Shown: positions 578 to 37,004 of the stretch, piece after piece
How the letters are laid out: each line of letters begins with the position of its first letter
Position numbering within the stretch: position 1 is the first letter of the stretch
NCBI RefSeq assembly: GCF_014230055.1
Contig: NZ_JACHVA010000053.1
Span: forward strand, 186,001 to 250,000
DNA from: Puniceicoccus vermicola
Lineage (GTDB): Bacteria > Verrucomicrobiota > Verrucomicrobiia > Opitutales > Puniceicoccaceae
Direction: 5' to 3'
Length of the DNA: 64,000 bases
Program-made: the position numbers and the translations under genes
The notes under the pieces: generated by a model
What the model saw: only the letters and a program-made list of their open reading frames with translations
What the model was told of the DNA's origin: nothing
The model's database searches: none

Positions 578-2080
578 TTAGGAGTCTTGGGAGCAGGTTG
601 TGGTTCCCGGTCGAAATTTACCTTCTACCATGAAGGATCTTGGTGATTGGGGGACCCCTCGTTCATTATTTCTCATAAGGCTAAGAAGAAGGTCGATTGA
701 AGCGAAGCCCACTTGCTGGGATTGTTGGTCGATCCCGGTAACTTCCTGCATAGCCGGGGTTAGGTTTACATGAGCAAGACCTACTTCCTCTGGGTATGGG
801 ATTTCCAGTTCTTTGAGCCACCGCTGGATTTCCGGCCCAGTTGTGACAATCGCATCAGGGCGGGAATTTTCAAACCATTGGCCGAATCTCTTCCGATTCC
901 AGTCGCGGCTTAAAAGGAATGGAGCTTCCTCAGGTGCGGTTTTTCCTGAAAGGGCTGAGAGATAGCCGCCCTTCCAGTTGTGCTGCACTCGGTTATCTTG
1001 GTCTTCTTCCATCGCGAAACCGATCCGGTGGTATCCTATCTTCTGGAGTTCACGCATCAGTAATTGCATGGATTGAAACTGGTGGTTGCACGCTCGATAC
1101 AGCGAAGGGTGCTGAAGCGAGTATCCCAGCTCAACTGCGGAGAAGTAATGCCACCGAAAAGCCTCCAGAGACGGGCGAGATTGCGGGAGTGGTGCGACGA
1201 CTACGCCTTCGATCCCACGTTGGCGAATGATTTCACTCAGCCTGTGAGCAGACATTTCCGGTTCGTTGAGCCAAAATTCTTCAAGTTGGTACCCACATTG
1301 GCGTGCACGCTCATAGGCACCCTCCCTGTAAGCTCGATGGGTTGGATTCTTCTGCCAGTCATTGCGATCCTGATAGGCGGTCAGATACGCGATAATGTCA
1401 GGCGTCCGGTTTCGGCGATTCTCCCGAACTTTTTCCATCAATTTCTCCATATTTGGATCAGGAGCATATCCCCATTTATTGGCTAACGTCTTGATGTATC
1501 GCCGGGTTTTCTCGGGTAGGGTAGAGCTATCGCGTAGTGCCAGTGACACGGTAGTTTTGGAGTAGCCGGTTGCTTTGGCTAGATCCAGGAGAGTCGGGAC
1601 CTTGTCAGGTCTTTCTTCGGAGGTTAGGGACCGAGTCTTTTGTTTACTCCACCCGTATTTATGCAGGAGGCGATACAGCGTGGTTTTTGGCACCTTGCGA
1701 CCTAGCTTCTGAGCCAGAGCCTCTGATATCTGGTTTACCAGTTCTGGGGGATTTTCGCGGATTTCATGATTCCAGGCTTTAAAAAAATCCCGTTCTTCCT
1801 TGGGACTCATGATCGCGTTGCGGCGTCCTCCTCGATGATCTTTCGATTGAGCATTTTTGACCGGTCGTTTCTGGAGGCGGATCAGCGTAGATCGGCTAGT
1901 GCCGAGACTCTTCGCGGTTTGTTCCTGGGTGAGTCCGGCCAGCTGAGGCAGGATTATCGACTGCGCCTGCCTTAGTTCATCCAGCGTTTTTGCTTCTCGG
2001 GCCGCCTGGAGGGCCAGGTCAAATTGATCCTGGGAAGGGTCAATCCCAGGGCTTGGGGCGCGGGGTGGGTCTTGTTTCAT
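578..2080 (-). CDS. LacI-family regulator with an IS630-transposase-like DNA-binding N-terminus
   Basis: This 500-residue protein has two parts. Residues about 37-150 look like the bipartite DNA-binding region of IS630-type transposases. A first helix-turn-helix (LTQEQTAKSLGTSRSTLIRL, 50-69) is followed by a basic GGRR linker (84-87), then a winged-helix segment ending KTTLYRLLHKYGWSKQKTR (132-150). Residues about 161-207 are a canonical LacI headpiece (LLDLAKATGYSKTTVSLALR and an NKWGYAPDPN hinge). A periplasmic-binding-protein-like sensor domain fills the rest. No transposase DDE domain is present. LacI regulators normally have about 330-350 residues, so the first 160 are extra. It faces the sulfatase end tail to tail, 34 bp apart, and probably controls the local glycan genes. 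No strong ribosome site precedes the ATG. Confidence 0.85.
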   Translation of the reverse strand: MKQDPPRAPSPGIDPSQDQFDLALQAAREAKTLDELRQAQSIILPQLAGLTQEQTAKSLGTSRSTLIRLQKRPVKNAQSKDHRGGRRNAIMSPKEERDFFKAWNHEIRENPPELVNQISEALAQKLGRKVPKTTLYRLLHKYGWSKQKTRSLTSEERPDKVPTLLDLAKATGYSKTTVSLALRDSSTLPEKTRRYIKTLANKWGYAPDPNMEKLMEKVRENRRNRTPDIIAYLTAYQDRNDWQKNPTHRAYREGAYERARQCGYQLEEFWLNEPEMSAHRLSEIIRQRGIEGVVVAPLPQSRPSLEAFRWHYFSAVELGYSLQHPSLYRACNHQFQSMQLLMRELQKIGYHRIGFAMEEDQDNRVQHNWKGGYLSALSGKTAPEEAPFLLSRDWNRKRFGQWFENSRPDAIVTTGPEIQRWLKELEIPYPEEVGLAHVNLTPAMQEVTGIDQQSQQVGFASIDLLLSLMRNNERGVPQSPRSFMVEGKFRPGTTTCSQDS

Positions 2081-2185
2081 TTTGAATGGAAATAAAAAAC
2101 CATAAAGCCACGAGGCAATTGAAAACTTGTGCCGGTTTTAATGTTGTCGTGGGTATCTTCCCCAAAGAATCACACTTTTTACCCG

Positions 2186-2875
2186 ATGTTCAGAACCCCT
2201 TTAGAAGCTTCCCAGCGTCAGATCCCCAAAGCACTCTGCGGATTCACCTTGGTCGAGCTGATCACCGCAATCGCCGTATTGGGGATCTTAACAGCAATTC
2301 TGATTCCCTCTCTCAGTAGCGTCCGCCGGAGAGCGGAAACCGCCGAGTGTGCTTCGAATATGAGGCAACTCTATTCCGCGATCGTTCAGCAGGCACAGGA
2401 CAACGGGGGGCGATTCGTAATGGCCAATAATAATACTACGGGCGTTCGCTGGTTCCAAGGAGAACTAAATAGAGCCGGCAAGGGTAAGTCTGAACTGTCT
2501 CCCTTTGCGGGGGGAGGAGATACTTTGCAGCGGCTATCCGTATGTCCTTTGAACCTTACCGATGAACCGGTGGCCTATCCGCGCAACGACTACGGCTATC
2601 CCTATGTTGTGAACTATCATGTTCTAGCTCACTCGGGAGCAGACCGCCGAACATCACTTTACGAAATGGAAGATCCATCAAGGGTTGTAATGATGACAGA
2701 CTCTAATAAAGGACCCGATTGGGGAAATTCAGGATTTGGAGAATCCACCAACCCCTCTTGGTCACGGATTGCCGAGCCTCACGGAGGAAAGACCAATGTC
2801 CTTTGGTGTGACGGCCACGTGACCCTCCAGCCGAAATCAGAAATTGAAGAGAATACACAATTACTCAGCGACTGA
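2186..2875 (+). CDS. Type II secretion/type IV pilin-like pseudopilin with H-X9-DG motif
   Basis: The N-terminus has a prepilin peptidase site, CG|FTLVELITAIAVLGILTAIL, with Glu at +5 of the mature chain and a following hydrophobic helix. From the ATG at 2186 the leader is 19 residues; an in-frame GTG at 2129 and ATG at 2141 would only lengthen the leader. The C-terminus carries H-G-G-K-T-N-V-L-W-C-D-G, i.e. the H-X9-DG signature of large pseudopilin-like families in Planctomycetes and Verrucomicrobiota. It is 229 residues, longer than a GspG major pseudopilin. Such proteins are inserted in the inner membrane and processed by PilD-type peptidase; their exact role is unknown. The neighbouring LamG protein and glycosidase suggest a surface or secretion role in glycan use. 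Confidence 0.8.
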   Translation: MFRTPLEASQRQIPKALCGFTLVELITAIAVLGILTAILIPSLSSVRRRAETAECASNMRQLYSAIVQQAQDNGGRFVMANNNTTGVRWFQGELNRAGKGKSELSPFAGGGDTLQRLSVCPLNLTDEPVAYPRNDYGYPYVVNYHVLAHSGADRRTSLYEMEDPSRVVMMTDSNKGPDWGNSGFGESTNPSWSRIAEPHGGKTNVLWCDGHVTLQPKSEIEENTQLLSD

Positions 2876-2948
2876 GTTCCGATTTTTCCAATGCGGAAAA
2901 GGACCGTTACCGGTTCCATCTATTTATTCACCCAAACACACATCTCCT

Positions 2949-3848
2949 ATGAAAAGAATAACTCGTCGATCCCCTCGTCTCCTGTCATGCGCAGCTTTGC
3001 TTGTCGCTTCAAGCGCATGGTTGCCTGCTCAAACCTTGCTCCTGAATTACGACTTTGAGGGTAGCGGTACTACGGTTACCAATGCTGGAGATACCTCCGG
3101 TGCCAATCTTACGTTTTTCGATTCGGGGGGAGCGGCCAGTGATTTGTTTTCTTCTGATGGAGAAGGGGTCGGCGGAGTGGGTCAGGCCTTTGATAATAGC
3201 GCGTCGACCGGAATGGGGAGTCAAGGCACCGGGGGACGTGCCCAATCCGATACTTCCGTCGGAGGCAGCGTTGGAAGCCTATCCTCATTCACGATTACCG
3301 GATGGTTTAAAACGGACGGCGTGCCTTTCGAATACGGGGCGACACTGTTTGCAATGAGCGATGGATCGACCAACGGGATTTCTTTGTCGACAGGAAACAA
3401 CGAAAATGACGGACGCATTCGAATGAGGGTTAATGGCACAGCGACCGATAGCTCCGCTGTTAACCGCTACAACACTGTATCGGATTGGCAGTTCTTCGCG
3501 GTGACTTACGATGGGACTTCGAGCTCGAACAATGTGAATTTTTACGTCGGTACCGAAGAGGACGCCCTTTCTTTGGTATCCGTCGGCTCTCTAAACGCAG
3601 GAGTGGTGGAGTCAGCGACGGGGCGGCCTGTCGTGTTGGGGAATAATCAAGACAGTAACACCCGTCCATTTGATGGATTTTTGGATGACTTTCGGCTGTA
3701 TGGCGAATCAACCGGAGCAGATGGGGTTTTGGACTTTTCCGAAATCGAACAGATTCGGGCGAGCAGTATTCCAGAATTATCCAGCTCCAGTATGGTCATC
3801 ACCATTTTTGCCTTCGCGATGGTTCACTTTGTAAGACGCCGTCGCTAG
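2949..3848 (+). CDS. Secreted LamG/concanavalin-like protein with PEP-CTERM-like tail
   Basis: The 299-residue product starts at the ATG at 2949, giving a clear signal peptide (basic MKRITRRSPR, hydrophobic core, cut near LPAQ). An upstream in-frame ATG at 2844 lies inside the pseudopilin gene and is unlikely. The middle (about residues 85-260) has the LamG/laminin-G-like pattern: 'FTITGWFKTDG', 'WQFFAVTYDGT', 'PVVLGNNQDS', 'FDGFLDDFRLYG'. The C-terminus reads IPE, then a hydrophobic helix and RRRR, a degenerate PEP-CTERM sorting signal that an exosortase might recognise. LamG domains bind carbohydrates, so a role in substrate capture near the glycosidase is plausible. No exosortase is in the window. 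Confidence 0.78.
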   Translation: MKRITRRSPRLLSCAALLVASSAWLPAQTLLLNYDFEGSGTTVTNAGDTSGANLTFFDSGGAASDLFSSDGEGVGGVGQAFDNSASTGMGSQGTGGRAQSDTSVGGSVGSLSSFTITGWFKTDGVPFEYGATLFAMSDGSTNGISLSTGNNENDGRIRMRVNGTATDSSAVNRYNTVSDWQFFAVTYDGTSSSNNVNFYVGTEEDALSLVSVGSLNAGVVESATGRPVVLGNNQDSNTRPFDGFLDDFRLYGESTGADGVLDFSEIEQIRASSIPELSSSSMVITIFAFAMVHFVRRRR

Positions 3849-3879
3849 GATTTGTTCCTTACCTGCATTCTCATTTGTG

Positions 3880-6800
3880 ATGTTTCATAAGATCAATCGT
3901 TTCTGCCTGATCGCAGTTCTCTGTTCATGGGGGGCGGCCTTGCTCCCTGCAGGGGTAAAGGCTCCCGAGTTCGACATACCAAGCTTCACGCTTGCTCAAA
4001 ATGGAGTGATCGCGCTGGACGGGATCTCCATAGGGGTGGGGCACTACGATCTCGATTGGAATCACGTGTGGCAGAATAATTTGGAGGCGGATCCTGATTC
4101 ATTGGTTTGGGAGGAGAGCCAAAAGGCGTTTGTGATTAAAGGGTCACTCGTTACGAAAGGAGGTGGAGAACCATTGTTGGTGGAGGAGAAGGTTTGGCCG
4201 GTTGGGAGTCGCGACTTCGATGCCAGCTATACTGTGAGCCACTCGGATGGTCTTCCCACAAACGACCTGAGCTTGCGAGTCTACCTGCCACTGCCCGTGG
4301 CCGCGGGGCGATTGGTTCGGATTGATGGAAAGGGTTACGAATTGCCCGCTGAATATGACGAATCAGCGCTTTTTTATATCAAAGAAGGAATGCATGTTGT
4401 CGAATTGCCGACGCAGAAGGGCACACTTGTTATCGAAGGCAAATTCGGTGTCATCGGGACCGATCAAAAGCCCTCAAAGTTTCGTCGGTATTCAGTCCGC
4501 TTGAATTTTTTCAACGAGGAGGATGCTCTAAAGTCAGCCTCGATTTCAGTCAAAGTGCGCTACGTGCCATTTCGCAGTGAGCCAGTGGATATGCGCGCGG
4601 CTGTGAATCGAGCGCTGGTGGATGAGGTAGCCTCGGATGGAAAAGGGGGATGGACGGATCAGGGGCCAGAGAATGATTTGTCTCCTCTGGAGCCAGGCGA
4701 AGTGACTGCTTCAAATGTAGTTTTTGAGGTCATTGACGCTGAGCAGAATCAGGATCGTGCAGCCCTCGTTTTTGCGAACGAGCAGCAGCCCGACTTGCCT
4801 TCCTCGGCTTTAGTTTCAGTCCCAGGGAATCCGATTTGGCGTAATCTCTATCTGCTCCATGCCGCAGCTTGGACTGCTCCGAGTGGAACCTTGAATGGTG
4901 AGATAGTCATCCGCTATTTGGATGGTAGCGAAACGCGCCACAAAATTAAGAGCGGCGACGATGTAGGGAACTGGTGGGCACCCGTTTCCTATGCGAACTC
5001 AGTTGTTGCGTGGGTCGGGGAAAATGAAAGCAAGCGAGTCGGCCTCTTTGTCTCCCGATTTCCCTTGGACGAGAAGCCGATTGATACGATCTCTCTGGTC
5101 AGTACAGGGGCTTCCATGTGGATGATCGTGGGTATGTCCGGTTCGCCGGATGATATTCCAATTGGAGAGATCAAAATTCCGTTGGAATTGAAAGCCGGCA
5201 ACGATTGGGGTGCTTACGAGCATGAGTTGGAAATCGAGAAGGGTAGTGTGTTTGATTTTTCAGATTCGCTCGATGCGCCCGCCGGTAAATTTGGCTATGT
5301 CGTTCCTACGGAAGAAGGTCATTTGGCTTTTGAGGATCGACCAAACGAGCGAGTCCGTTTTTGGGGGATAAATCTATGCTTCACCGCAAATTTCCTGACT
5401 CATGAAGAATCGGATAAGCTGGCGAACCGGATCGCTCGGTCGGGTTATAATGTGGTTCGGCTTCATCATTTTGATGCGCATTTGTCTGCCAAGCAGGAAG
5501 ACAGCTCCATACTGGATCCGGTGCGTCTTGATGAGATTGACTACTTGGTAGCGGCTTTGAAGAAGCGGGGAATCTATGTGAACATCGACCTCTACTCGAC
5601 GCGAAGATTTAGCGAGGAGGAGCTGGTCTCGTTTGGGATAGATCCAAGTATTTCGCAAAGCCGGACCCGGGAGCCCTATAAAGCTCTGGTCGCTATTTCG
5701 GAAGAGGCTTTTCAATCCTGGGCAAGTTATGCGGACAATCTATTGTTGCATCGCAATCCCTACACTGGACTCACTTGGGCAGAGGAGCCCGCAATCATAA
5801 GTATGTGTCCTATCAATGAAGTGGTAATTGAACGCATCTTACCCTATAATAATGCAGTGCGCGAACAATTTGAAATGCGCTTCGAGGACTGGCTCCAAAC
5901 GCCAGAAGGCATAGCTACAGTAGATCCGGATGCGGGTGAAGGAGAACGAGACGCTGCATTTCGGCAGTGGATTTACGAGACGGAAGGGAAGATGAATGTC
6001 CGGCTGGAGAATTATCTGCGATCGATAGGAGTGAAAAGCATGCTGACGGGGACCAATCATATGAATGTCCAAGGGTTGACCTTCTTGCGGGAAGACTACG
6101 ACATCGTCGACAATCACCATTATTGGGACCATCCTCAGTTTCCCAAGACCCGTTGGCGTCTGCCTTATGCCTTTCATCAGAAAAGCGTTTTGTCGGAGGA
6201 GGTTCGAACCCCTCGTTATCTCATGGCGACTCGTGTGCCCGGCATCCCTTTTAGTGTTTCTGAGGTTAACTTTGTGCGTCCGAATCAATTTCGGGCTGAA
6301 GGCGGTGTCTTAATGCCCGCGTATGCGAGTTTGCAGGATTGGGATGCGATTTATAACTTTGAATACGCGATGAATCAGAGGCATGCAATCGACGGAGGTG
6401 TAGATAGTGTGTTTTCGTTGTCCAATGATCCGATTGGGCTTTTGGCAGATCGAATTTCAGCGGTGCTTTTCCGCCGAGAATATATTGCCTCGGCGCCGGG
6501 CTTGATTACCTATGCGGTTCAGCCTGAGGAGGCTTTTTCTGAAACGAGAAAAGAGTTCTCAAATGATTTCACGCGCTTGGGCCTTGTTACCCGCATCGGT
6601 TCACTTCCTGGCTCTCCGCAAGAGGTCTTGGAGCAAACAGAGTCGCTAGCGGTTGTAACCGGAATGGGTGACGAAAAGCCTCCCGTGTATCTTTCAAATC
6701 CGAATCTCGACCAAGAGTTGCAGCAGGGCGGGGTTTTACCCGAGGGTAGTATTTCGCCGAGGGGAGAATTTAAGAGTGAGACCGATCAGATCAGGCTGGA

Positions 6801-7263
6801 TACGAAGAAGCTTACTGCGAGTGTCATAGCGCCGAAGTGCGAGCTTTTCGTTTTACCCGCAAGAACCAGAAGCGAAGGGGAGATTGTTTCAGTAGTCAAT
6901 GGCGATGCCTTTGCTACCATTTCTCTAATAGCGGTGGACGATGAGGAGTTGGCCGAGAGTCGACGTCTCTTGCTAATGCACCTGACAGATGGTTTGCCCA
7001 CAGGGATGAGATTCGAGGATGAAGACCGAACGGTTCTAACGGATTGGGGTCGCCTCCCTTACTTGATTCATCAAGGTGCCACTGAAGTTTTGTTGAGGCT
7101 CCCTGCTAACGTAGACTACTCCGTCTGGGCCGTCGATGCAACGGGTCGCCGGACTCACGAGATTCCCATGAACCGAACTTCTGAAGGCTGGCGTATCACG
7201 CTGAAAACAGTAACTTCTGAGGGAGTTCAATTGGCTTATGAGATTGTCCGCAATGAAGGCTGA
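3880..7263 (+). CDS. Large secreted clan GH-A-like glycoside hydrolase
   Basis: The 1127-residue protein starts at ATG 3880 (a GTG lies one codon upstream) with a signal peptide ending near LLPAG. About 470 residues of beta-rich sequence precede a TIM-barrel region beginning 'RVRFWGINLCF' and continuing 'SGYNVVRLHHFDAH'. The barrel shows the two glutamates expected in clan GH-A: CPINE (acid/base, Glu647) and SVSEVNF (nucleophile, Glu795). An 'NHHYWDHPQF' strand lies between them. The last about 260 residues are again beta-rich. I cannot assign a CAZy family; GH5-like is the nearest guess. It is followed directly by the oligogalacturonate lyase gene, so the two are probably co-transcribed. The substrate is unknown. 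Confidence 0.75.
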   Translation: MFHKINRFCLIAVLCSWGAALLPAGVKAPEFDIPSFTLAQNGVIALDGISIGVGHYDLDWNHVWQNNLEADPDSLVWEESQKAFVIKGSLVTKGGGEPLLVEEKVWPVGSRDFDASYTVSHSDGLPTNDLSLRVYLPLPVAAGRLVRIDGKGYELPAEYDESALFYIKEGMHVVELPTQKGTLVIEGKFGVIGTDQKPSKFRRYSVRLNFFNEEDALKSASISVKVRYVPFRSEPVDMRAAVNRALVDEVASDGKGGWTDQGPENDLSPLEPGEVTASNVVFEVIDAEQNQDRAALVFANEQQPDLPSSALVSVPGNPIWRNLYLLHAAAWTAPSGTLNGEIVIRYLDGSETRHKIKSGDDVGNWWAPVSYANSVVAWVGENESKRVGLFVSRFPLDEKPIDTISLVSTGASMWMIVGMSGSPDDIPIGEIKIPLELKAGNDWGAYEHELEIEKGSVFDFSDSLDAPAGKFGYVVPTEEGHLAFEDRPNERVRFWGINLCFTANFLTHEESDKLANRIARSGYNVVRLHHFDAHLSAKQEDSSILDPVRLDEIDYLVAALKKRGIYVNIDLYSTRRFSEEELVSFGIDPSISQSRTREPYKALVAISEEAFQSWASYADNLLLHRNPYTGLTWAEEPAIISMCPINEVVIERILPYNNAVREQFEMRFEDWLQTPEGIATVDPDAGEGERDAAFRQWIYETEGKMNVRLENYLRSIGVKSMLTGTNHMNVQGLTFLREDYDIVDNHHYWDHPQFPKTRWRLPYAFHQKSVLSEEVRTPRYLMATRVPGIPFSVSEVNFVRPNQFRAEGGVLMPAYASLQDWDAIYNFEYAMNQRHAIDGGVDSVFSLSNDPIGLLADRISAVLFRREYIASAPGLITYAVQPEEAFSETRKEFSNDFTRLGLVTRIGSLPGSPQEVLEQTESLAVVTGMGDEKPPVYLSNPNLDQELQQGGVLPEGSISPRGEFKSETDQIRLDTKKLTASVIAPKCELFVLPARTRSEGEIVSVVNGDAFATISLIAVDDEELAESRRLLLMHLTDGLPTGMRFEDEDRTVLTDWGRLPYLIHQGATEVLLRLPANVDYSVWAVDATGRRTHEIPMNRTSEGWRITLKTVTSEGVQLAYEIVRNEG

Positions 7264-36035: not shown

Positions 36036-37004
36036 ATGGTTTTGATTATGGGCAGACTTAGGCGTAAGGAATCGAATCGATTGTCTTATCATCATCTGAT
36101 GAGCCGGACAGTGAATGGGGAGGCTCTCTTTGGCGACCGGGAGAGGGAGGTTTTGCGGAAGATGATTTGGCAGGTAGCTGAGTTTTCCGGGGTTCGGGTG
36201 GTTACTTATGCGGTGATGAAGAACCATTTCCATATTTTGGTGGAGGTGCCACCGACAGGGACGGAGGTTTCGGATGCGGAGTTGGTTCGTCGGTATCGGA
36301 AGCTGTATCCTAAGCCTACGCCTTGGAACCCGATGCCTGCGGAGGTTTTGGAGGGGCATTTGAAGGATAACTTCCTTGATGGGAGAGAGTTGCGGAAGGA
36401 GCTTACCCGCCGCATGCATGATGTTTCGGAGTTTATGCGGACTCTAAAGCTTCGTTTTACGCTTTGGTTCAATCGATCACGTGATCGGTTTGGTCCGCTT
36501 TGGTCGGCTCGGTTTAAGAGTGTTTTGGTAGAAGGGGATCGTTGGGCGCTACGGACTGTGGCGGCCTATATTGACCTCAATGCGGTTCGGGCGGGGCTGG
36601 TTTCGGATCCTAAGGATTATCGGTTTTGCGGGTATGCGGAGGCTCTTGGGGGCGGCCGACTGGCTCGGGCCGGGCTTTCGGTTGTCGATAAGGATCTGGC
36701 TGGGTATCGGCAGACTTTGTATGGGGCTGGCGATGGAGAGAAAGAGGGGAAAGTGTCCATTTCTCACGAAGAAGCGGTGCGGGTTTTGCAGGAGGAGAAG
36801 GGGAAGTTGCCCTTGTCGGTCGTTTTGCGGTGCCGGGTTCGCTATTTTTCGGACGGGATGGTGCTGGGATCGGAAGATTTTGTGAACAAGTTCCTAGAGG
36901 GCGAACTGGATGGGAAGCGGGCGCGAAGACCTCATCCTCTGCGTGGGAGTGACTGGAAGGGGCTTGCCGTGGGGACTGGGCTGCGGATGAAGATCTTTGA
37001 GTAG
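36036..37004 (+). CDS. REP-associated tyrosine transposase-like (RAYT / IS200-type Y1) protein
   Basis: The 322-residue protein has the Y1 HUH-type transposase signature: 'SYHHLMSRTVNGEALFGDRE', then 'YAVMKNHFHILVEVPP' with the HUH motif HFH, and 'GPLWSARFKSVLVEGDRWALRTVAAYIDLNAVRAGLVSDPKDYRFCGYAEAL' typical of RAYTs. A catalytic Tyr is probably among those in 'FCGYAEA' or nearby. Codons are G-rich (gtt/ggg/cgg runs). It has no visible partner ORF, so it is a solitary domestication-type gene; dispersed palindromes in this window might be its substrates. Confidence 0.85.
   Translation: MVLIMGRLRRKESNRLSYHHLMSRTVNGEALFGDREREVLRKMIWQVAEFSGVRVVTYAVMKNHFHILVEVPPTGTEVSDAELVRRYRKLYPKPTPWNPMPAEVLEGHLKDNFLDGRELRKELTRRMHDVSEFMRTLKLRFTLWFNRSRDRFGPLWSARFKSVLVEGDRWALRTVAAYIDLNAVRAGLVSDPKDYRFCGYAEALGGGRLARAGLSVVDKDLAGYRQTLYGAGDGEKEGKVSISHEEAVRVLQEEKGKLPLSVVLRCRVRYFSDGMVLGSEDFVNKFLEGELDGKRARRPHPLRGSDWKGLAVGTGLRMKIFE

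Follow-up and report, generated by a model that had tools for sequence, protein, structure and literature searches.

In the window, a 64-kb stretch of Puniceicoccus vermicola DNA, the gene P0001 encodes a LacI-type regulator carrying the DNA-binding module of an IS630 transposase ahead of its own headpiece. The fusion is a derived state, its LacI core is intact, the ancestral operator has been lost, and a relic of an IS630 inverted repeat lies where the left end of the element is expected. On balance, we lean towards the explanation that the left end of an IS630 element, namely its inverted repeat and the N-terminal half of orfA, was captured in frame by lacI, giving a working regulator with autoregulation. 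DNA binding and regulation by the fused protein, its proposed function, are inferred from sequence. The coordinates of the features are summarized in Table 1.

Table 1 Features of the fused regulator gene, its surroundings and the putative operators of its unfused orthologues
Feature	Position	Strand	Evidence
Fused regulator gene P0001	578..2080	-	Open frame, coding statistics, Pfam and NCBIfam matches
Captured IS630 bipartite DNA-binding module, residues 20-146	1643..2023	-	Aligned with IS630 orfA, 25-44% identity; AlphaFold2 model with two three-helix units
First helix-turn-helix of the module, residues 33-72	1865..1984	-	HTH_23, 25.0 bits (cut-off 24.6)
GGRR linker, residues 84-87	1820..1831	-	G84 and G85 invariant in an alignment of 17 sequences
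Winged helix of the module, residues 117-156	1613..1732	-	HTH_33, 28.7 bits (cut-off 25)
Fusion junction, residues 147-157, from the end of the IS630 match to the PxK motif common to unfused orthologues	1610..1642	-	Alignments A2 and A3; low model confidence
LacI headpiece, residues 163-208	1457..1594	-	PF00356, 29 bits (cut-off 27)
LacI ligand-sensing core, residues 228-495	596..1399	-	Peripla_BP_3; 50-54% identity to orthologues
Relic of IS630 left terminal inverted repeat, overlapping the start codon	2075..2099	-	IS630-end matrix, 17.5 bits; orientation and spacing as expected
Divergent prepilin-like gene	2129..2875	+	N_methyl; synteny with two unfused orthologues
LamG-domain gene and 1128-aa glycosidase-like gene, possible targets	2844..7263	+	Laminin_G_3 above cut-off; sub-threshold GH5 Cellulase match
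CTTTATTGTAAAG sites	L079:8053, 8128, 10539; L075:9378, 11795, 11885; L096:2800

The open reading frame begins with ATG and encodes a protein of 500 aa, in which the transposase DNA-binding domain and the host LacI domains share one frame. All four Pfam matches of P0001 exceed their curated cut-offs. A complete LacI protein is contained in residues 163-495, and the sensor domain Peripla_BP_3 (PF13377) was matched at residues 345-479 with 39.7 bits (cut-off 26.5). The headpiece of LacI/GalR proteins is usually, not obligatorily, at the extreme N-terminus; in P0001 it is preceded by 162 residues. Residues 40-160 matched positions 3-126 of the 299 positions of the NCBIfam profile for IS630 transposases (NF033545, E 3.9e-10), which is the similarity that the original prediction expected a profile search to find in the N-terminal region. 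The match ends where the catalytic half would start, and its total of 39.7 bits is under the whole-protein cut-off of 100, which would be expected of half a transposase. The Pfam search gave no DDE_3 match in P0001, and with the profile match stopping at position 126 this agrees with the claim that no transposase catalytic domain follows the module. Together, NF033545, HTH_23, HTH_33, PF00356 and Peripla_BP_3 also bear out the claim that an IS630-type bipartite DNA-binding region stands ahead of a full LacI protein. The bounds proposed for this region, residues 37-150, were about right, with the correction that the aligned module covers roughly 20-146, and the GGRR linker was found as predicted, both glycines being invariant among the relatives aligned. 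The AlphaFold2 model of the module has a mean pLDDT of 78 and a low-confidence linker. Foldseek with this model returned many weak matches, Pax, SETMAR and Mos1 among them, and none that was significant, and the VIA-align match list consisted mostly of sigma-region-4-like HTH units. The fold comparison therefore adds little beyond sequence.

The two sides of the junction were alike in coding statistics, residues 1-160 giving 0.101 bits per codon and the LacI part 0.074, and similar in GC content. In-frame starts ahead of the headpiece are present only at residues 1, 91 and 130. The nearest, a GTG at residue 130, is 33 codons from the headpiece, and the corresponding distance in 81 LacI relatives is 0-13 codons. 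The coding statistics and the headpiece without a nearby start led us to reject an untranslated upstream region, and the translation of the upstream 160 codons, which the original prediction had left for checking, is supported. Promoter and terminator scans of the start region returned nothing. ATG1 has no Shine-Dalgarno sequence, which is ordinary, as most genes in the window lack one. M91 has GGAGG approximately 15 bases upstream, though those bases encode the Gly-Gly of the module. This GGAGG, and the derivation of the sequence from a single draft assembly of 143 contigs, could be taken to mean that the upstream codons are untranslated, with an internal start at M91 or V130, or that the junction is an assembly chimera. 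However, the junction lies inside a 312-kb contig with equal codon statistics on its two sides, the headpiece differs from those of the 81 relatives in its lack of a nearby start, and the start at ATG1 is normal for the window, and such an artefact is extremely improbable.

We searched 388 genomes of the phylum for relatives of residues 1-160 and obtained short ORFs whose open frames do not exceed 250 aa. For most of the relatives inspected, which are orfA genes, the DDE motif is encoded by a following orfB in a different frame. A relative in Caballeronia is annotated as a winged-HTH protein and is followed by an IS630 family transposase, its orfB carrying DDE_3. The nearest relatives of the module were L092 (44%), L033 (40%), L087 (38%) and L091 (36%). 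In the phylogenetic tree, the module grouped with L091, L092, L093 and L033 (support 87/66), which are IS630 elements of the same class. The origin of the fusion, with a module derived from IS630 orfA, is thus well supported. A mixed alignment (A1) misplaced the IS630 rows against LacI and was left out of inference.

The fusion was seen in one genome only. The proposed survey for the same fusion in Opitutales brought no second case: neither the 373 order genomes and 388 phylum genomes searched nor the 81 LacI relatives contained another fusion, and an old architecture common to the order was rejected. Nor did any IS630-type match adjoin LacI in the 388 phylum genomes. A match in Paracoccus (H6) is only partly contained in the annotated LacI gene and does not represent a fusion. 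Separately, contig 33 of G635 encodes a 505-aa protein (L081:559-2076, +) in which three IS630-type HTH and winged-helix units stand in tandem and a DDE domain is lacking; it may be a further instance, within this order, of a captured array of transposase DNA-binding units.

When the single protein was used to scan genome contigs, there were no matches; an alignment scan then identified orthologues of the LacI part in G480 (L097, 51%), G488 (L098, 50%) and an Opitutaceae MAG (L096, 54%). The three proteins have no module and start 4-13 codons before the headpiece. The tree had the form (L096,(P0001,(L097,L098))), the clade being supported at 100/100 and its inner fork at 96/84. Since the three unfused orthologues bracket P0001, the fusion is derived and the unfused state is ancestral. 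With the profile matches and the orfA relatives, this tree supports those parts of the earlier view of the module as exapted that concern its IS630 origin and the derivation from an unfused ancestor.

Each of the three unfused orthologues has the palindrome CTTTATTGTAAAG, with at most one mismatch, in its upstream region. In G480 and G488 the palindrome recurs twice at neighbouring genes, and it looks like the operator of these LacI proteins. The 5.7-Mb G480 genome contains the degenerate pattern CTTTAYYGTAAAG three times, each time in the locus of the lacI orthologue, and the genome of the window has no match to it. Likewise, no CTTTATTGTAAAG site within two mismatches was found in the window or in the 14 kb before it. 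In the alignments, the contact residues of the headpiece are K175 and T176 in P0001 and R and M in the three orthologues. We take these two positions to correspond to LacI residues 17 and 18, which contact the operator. For the headpiece with these changed contacts, no operator was identified. A 13-mer, GTGCCGGTTTTAA, is identical at window positions 2129-2141 (+) and L079:10488, intergenic beside P0001 and its G480 orthologue; the copies are inverted relative to the regulator, and there is no other copy. With the ancestral operator gone and the fusion confined to one genome, the insertion might have disrupted lacI, and the fusion would then be a decaying pseudogene or a non-functional repressor. 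The 500 codons without stop or frameshift argue against this, as do the intact domain matches and the 50-54% identity of the LacI core to its orthologues, and we consider a broken allele very improbable.

We compared the window with the ends of IS630 elements. The end repeats of the nearest elements are ATTCTAATTCGCTTTCAAGTTGAGA-like in L091, L092 and L093 and ATTCCAATTTGCATTCAAGATGATT in L034. A matrix was built from seven IS630 ends, without the window sequence, and window positions 2075-2099 (-) ranked first of 127,952 positions in the 64 kb with 17.5 bits. The same site ranked second in the window when L091-L093 alone were used, and first with L034 alone. In the simulated background, a score of 17.5 bits had a frequency of about 1e-6 per position, and equally high scores occurred by chance in some simulated 64-kb sequences. 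Given these chance scores and the second rank with L091-L093, the weight of the relic comes from its position. The relic lies 94 bp from the codon of module residue 26, and the corresponding distances are 98 bp in L091, L092 and L093 and 145 bp in L034. Its orientation is that of the left end of the element, and the probability of a chance match of such strength within approximately 50 positions of the expected place is near 1e-4 or less. The relic reads TTTTTTATTTCCATTCAAAATGAAA, with the start codon within it, and its outer 6 bases are mostly lost. No comparable site was found at the unfused orthologues. No right end of IS630 was found nearby, and the terminal-repeat pair is incomplete. A loosened genome-wide pattern, which was set after the window site had been seen, was not used as a test; the IS-end matrix was used for this. 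The inverted-repeat relic in the expected place and orientation therefore indicates that the left end of the IS was captured.

The sequence of events may have been as follows. An IS630 element would have inserted just upstream of lacI, and its orfA would then have fused in frame to the first codons of lacI (residues 147-157), so that the fusion carried both the left repeat and the DNA-binding domain that reads this repeat. The full-length protein would be made as a regulator with three HTH units. Its module is predicted to bind the relic and to anchor the fused regulator over its own start; the resulting autoregulation would probably be repressive. The LacI headpiece, whose contacts are altered, may read a new operator under sugar control. 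The predicted autoregulation is better supported than control of the neighbouring genes through the module, because the sole candidate site found for the module is at the start of the regulator gene itself and no second strong relic was found in the surrounding 18.5 kb.

The module has a long branch in the tree (1.52) and keeps 21 of 35 conserved columns, the lowest number of its set; both are compatible with relaxed constraint. The open frame and the kept fold favour retention under selection and the reduced conserved columns do not, all within one genome. In a neutral simulation, the share of runs in which codons 1-129 remained stop-free was 3% at an amino-acid identity of 54% and 9% at 66%, a result that is no more than suggestive. 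The module may instead be a passenger. In that case a genuine, translated fusion would carry the IS630 part as an inert N-terminal tail, the headpiece would do all of the binding, and the operator would have drifted for other reasons. The long branch, the poor retention of conserved columns and the lack of a second relic near the likely target genes are in line with such a tail. It would be less expected, however, to keep the two-HTH architecture and the invariant glycines, to have stayed in an open frame at a divergence comparable to that simulated, and to have a still recognisable inverted-repeat relic at its start. We regard an inert module as rather unlikely, while giving it more weight than any other alternative considered here.

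Capture with autoregulation can also be compared with a composite operator, a two-part site that the module and the headpiece would read together, as the original prediction proposed, upstream of either or both of the sulfatase gene and the prepilin-LamG-glycosidase genes. P0001 and the prepilin-like gene form a divergent pair, and such a neighbour is also found beside L097 and L098, the two orthologous loci compared in detail. In the sulfatase promoter region, a direct repeat of TCTAGTCTTG, 21 bp apart, is located about 1037 and 1016 bases before window position 1 (near L078:12963 and L078:12984), one copy being inside the near-palindrome GTCTAGTCTTGAC. The arrangement of the regulator and this repeat would suit a composite operator. 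On the other hand, no inverted-repeat-like site is prominent at the sulfatase or prepilin-LamG-glycosidase promoters, and in this one genome the two share no common motif; a composite operator is improbable. The label PL22, which had been attached to a neighbouring gene, proved weak, as the window gene scored 12.5 bits against a cut-off of 30. Elsewhere on the same contig, two near-identical Y1_Tnp (REP-type) transposase genes are located approximately 46 kb apart (window 36036-37004, +, and L078:3843-4766).

Among known systems, the closest to P0001 are its LacI/GalR orthologues and the IS630 elements. L096, L097 and L098 have a similar headpiece and sensor, and the latter two also share the divergent prepilin-like neighbour; they differ from P0001 in their R-M contacts, in the CTTTATTGTAAAG upstream and in the absence of the module, whereas P0001 has K-T, no CTTTATTGTAAAG and the added module. 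The orfA proteins of IS630 (Tc1/mariner group; L092, L033 and L091) have the same HTH-GGRR-winged helix module, with 36-44% identity, and in L091 and L092 an inverted repeat is located just upstream at nearly the same distance as the relic of P0001. In these elements orfA is followed by orfB with DDE, whereas the module of P0001 runs into LacI and the catalytic half is gone. The isolated N-terminal domain of the ISY100 transposase is sufficient to bind its 24-bp inverted repeat; it protects this repeat and has an apparent Kd for it of about 10 nM (PMC2170065). Like the module of P0001, this domain has two HTH motifs joined by a linker, which is basic in ISY100, but it belongs to an active transposase and not to a regulator (PMC2170065).

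Recruitment of DNA-binding domains from mobile elements is known from other hosts. As far as the relevant parts of the two reports describe, transposon-derived transcription factors of animals arose by recombination of a transposase DNA-binding domain with a host domain (PMC10027918), and F-box genes captured the Tc1/mariner HTH in animals (PMC12062965). The hosts in these accounts are eukaryotic, whereas the partner in P0001 is a bacterial ligand-sensing regulator. In prokaryotes, the relevant section of a review on mobile-element-derived regulators describes SfsB, which is derived from phage Mu Ner and is, like the module of P0001, a regulatory DNA-binding protein recruited from a mobile element; unlike the half-transposase fusion, SfsB was recruited as a whole small HTH protein, and that section names no transposase domain fused to a regulator (PMC8987985). 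The open-licence papers searched yielded no bacterial regulator assembled from a transposase DNA-binding domain, and a precedent may exist elsewhere. Tentatively, and with slightly more doubt than confidence, we read P0001 as a bacterial transposase capture in which a DNA-binding domain and its cognate inverted repeat arrived together upstream of a sugar-responsive LacI gene, the ancestral operator was replaced, and the element itself supplied the autoregulatory site. Because the unfused orthologues have a recognisable operator, the states before and after the fusion are comparable, and the rewiring of a sugar regulator is testable by a few binding assays. In animals, transposase capture is a described route to new transcription factors; P0001 would be a bacterial counterpart. 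It also suggests a way in which a fusion of this kind could function from the outset, as the element supplies both the DNA-binding domain and the site that it reads.
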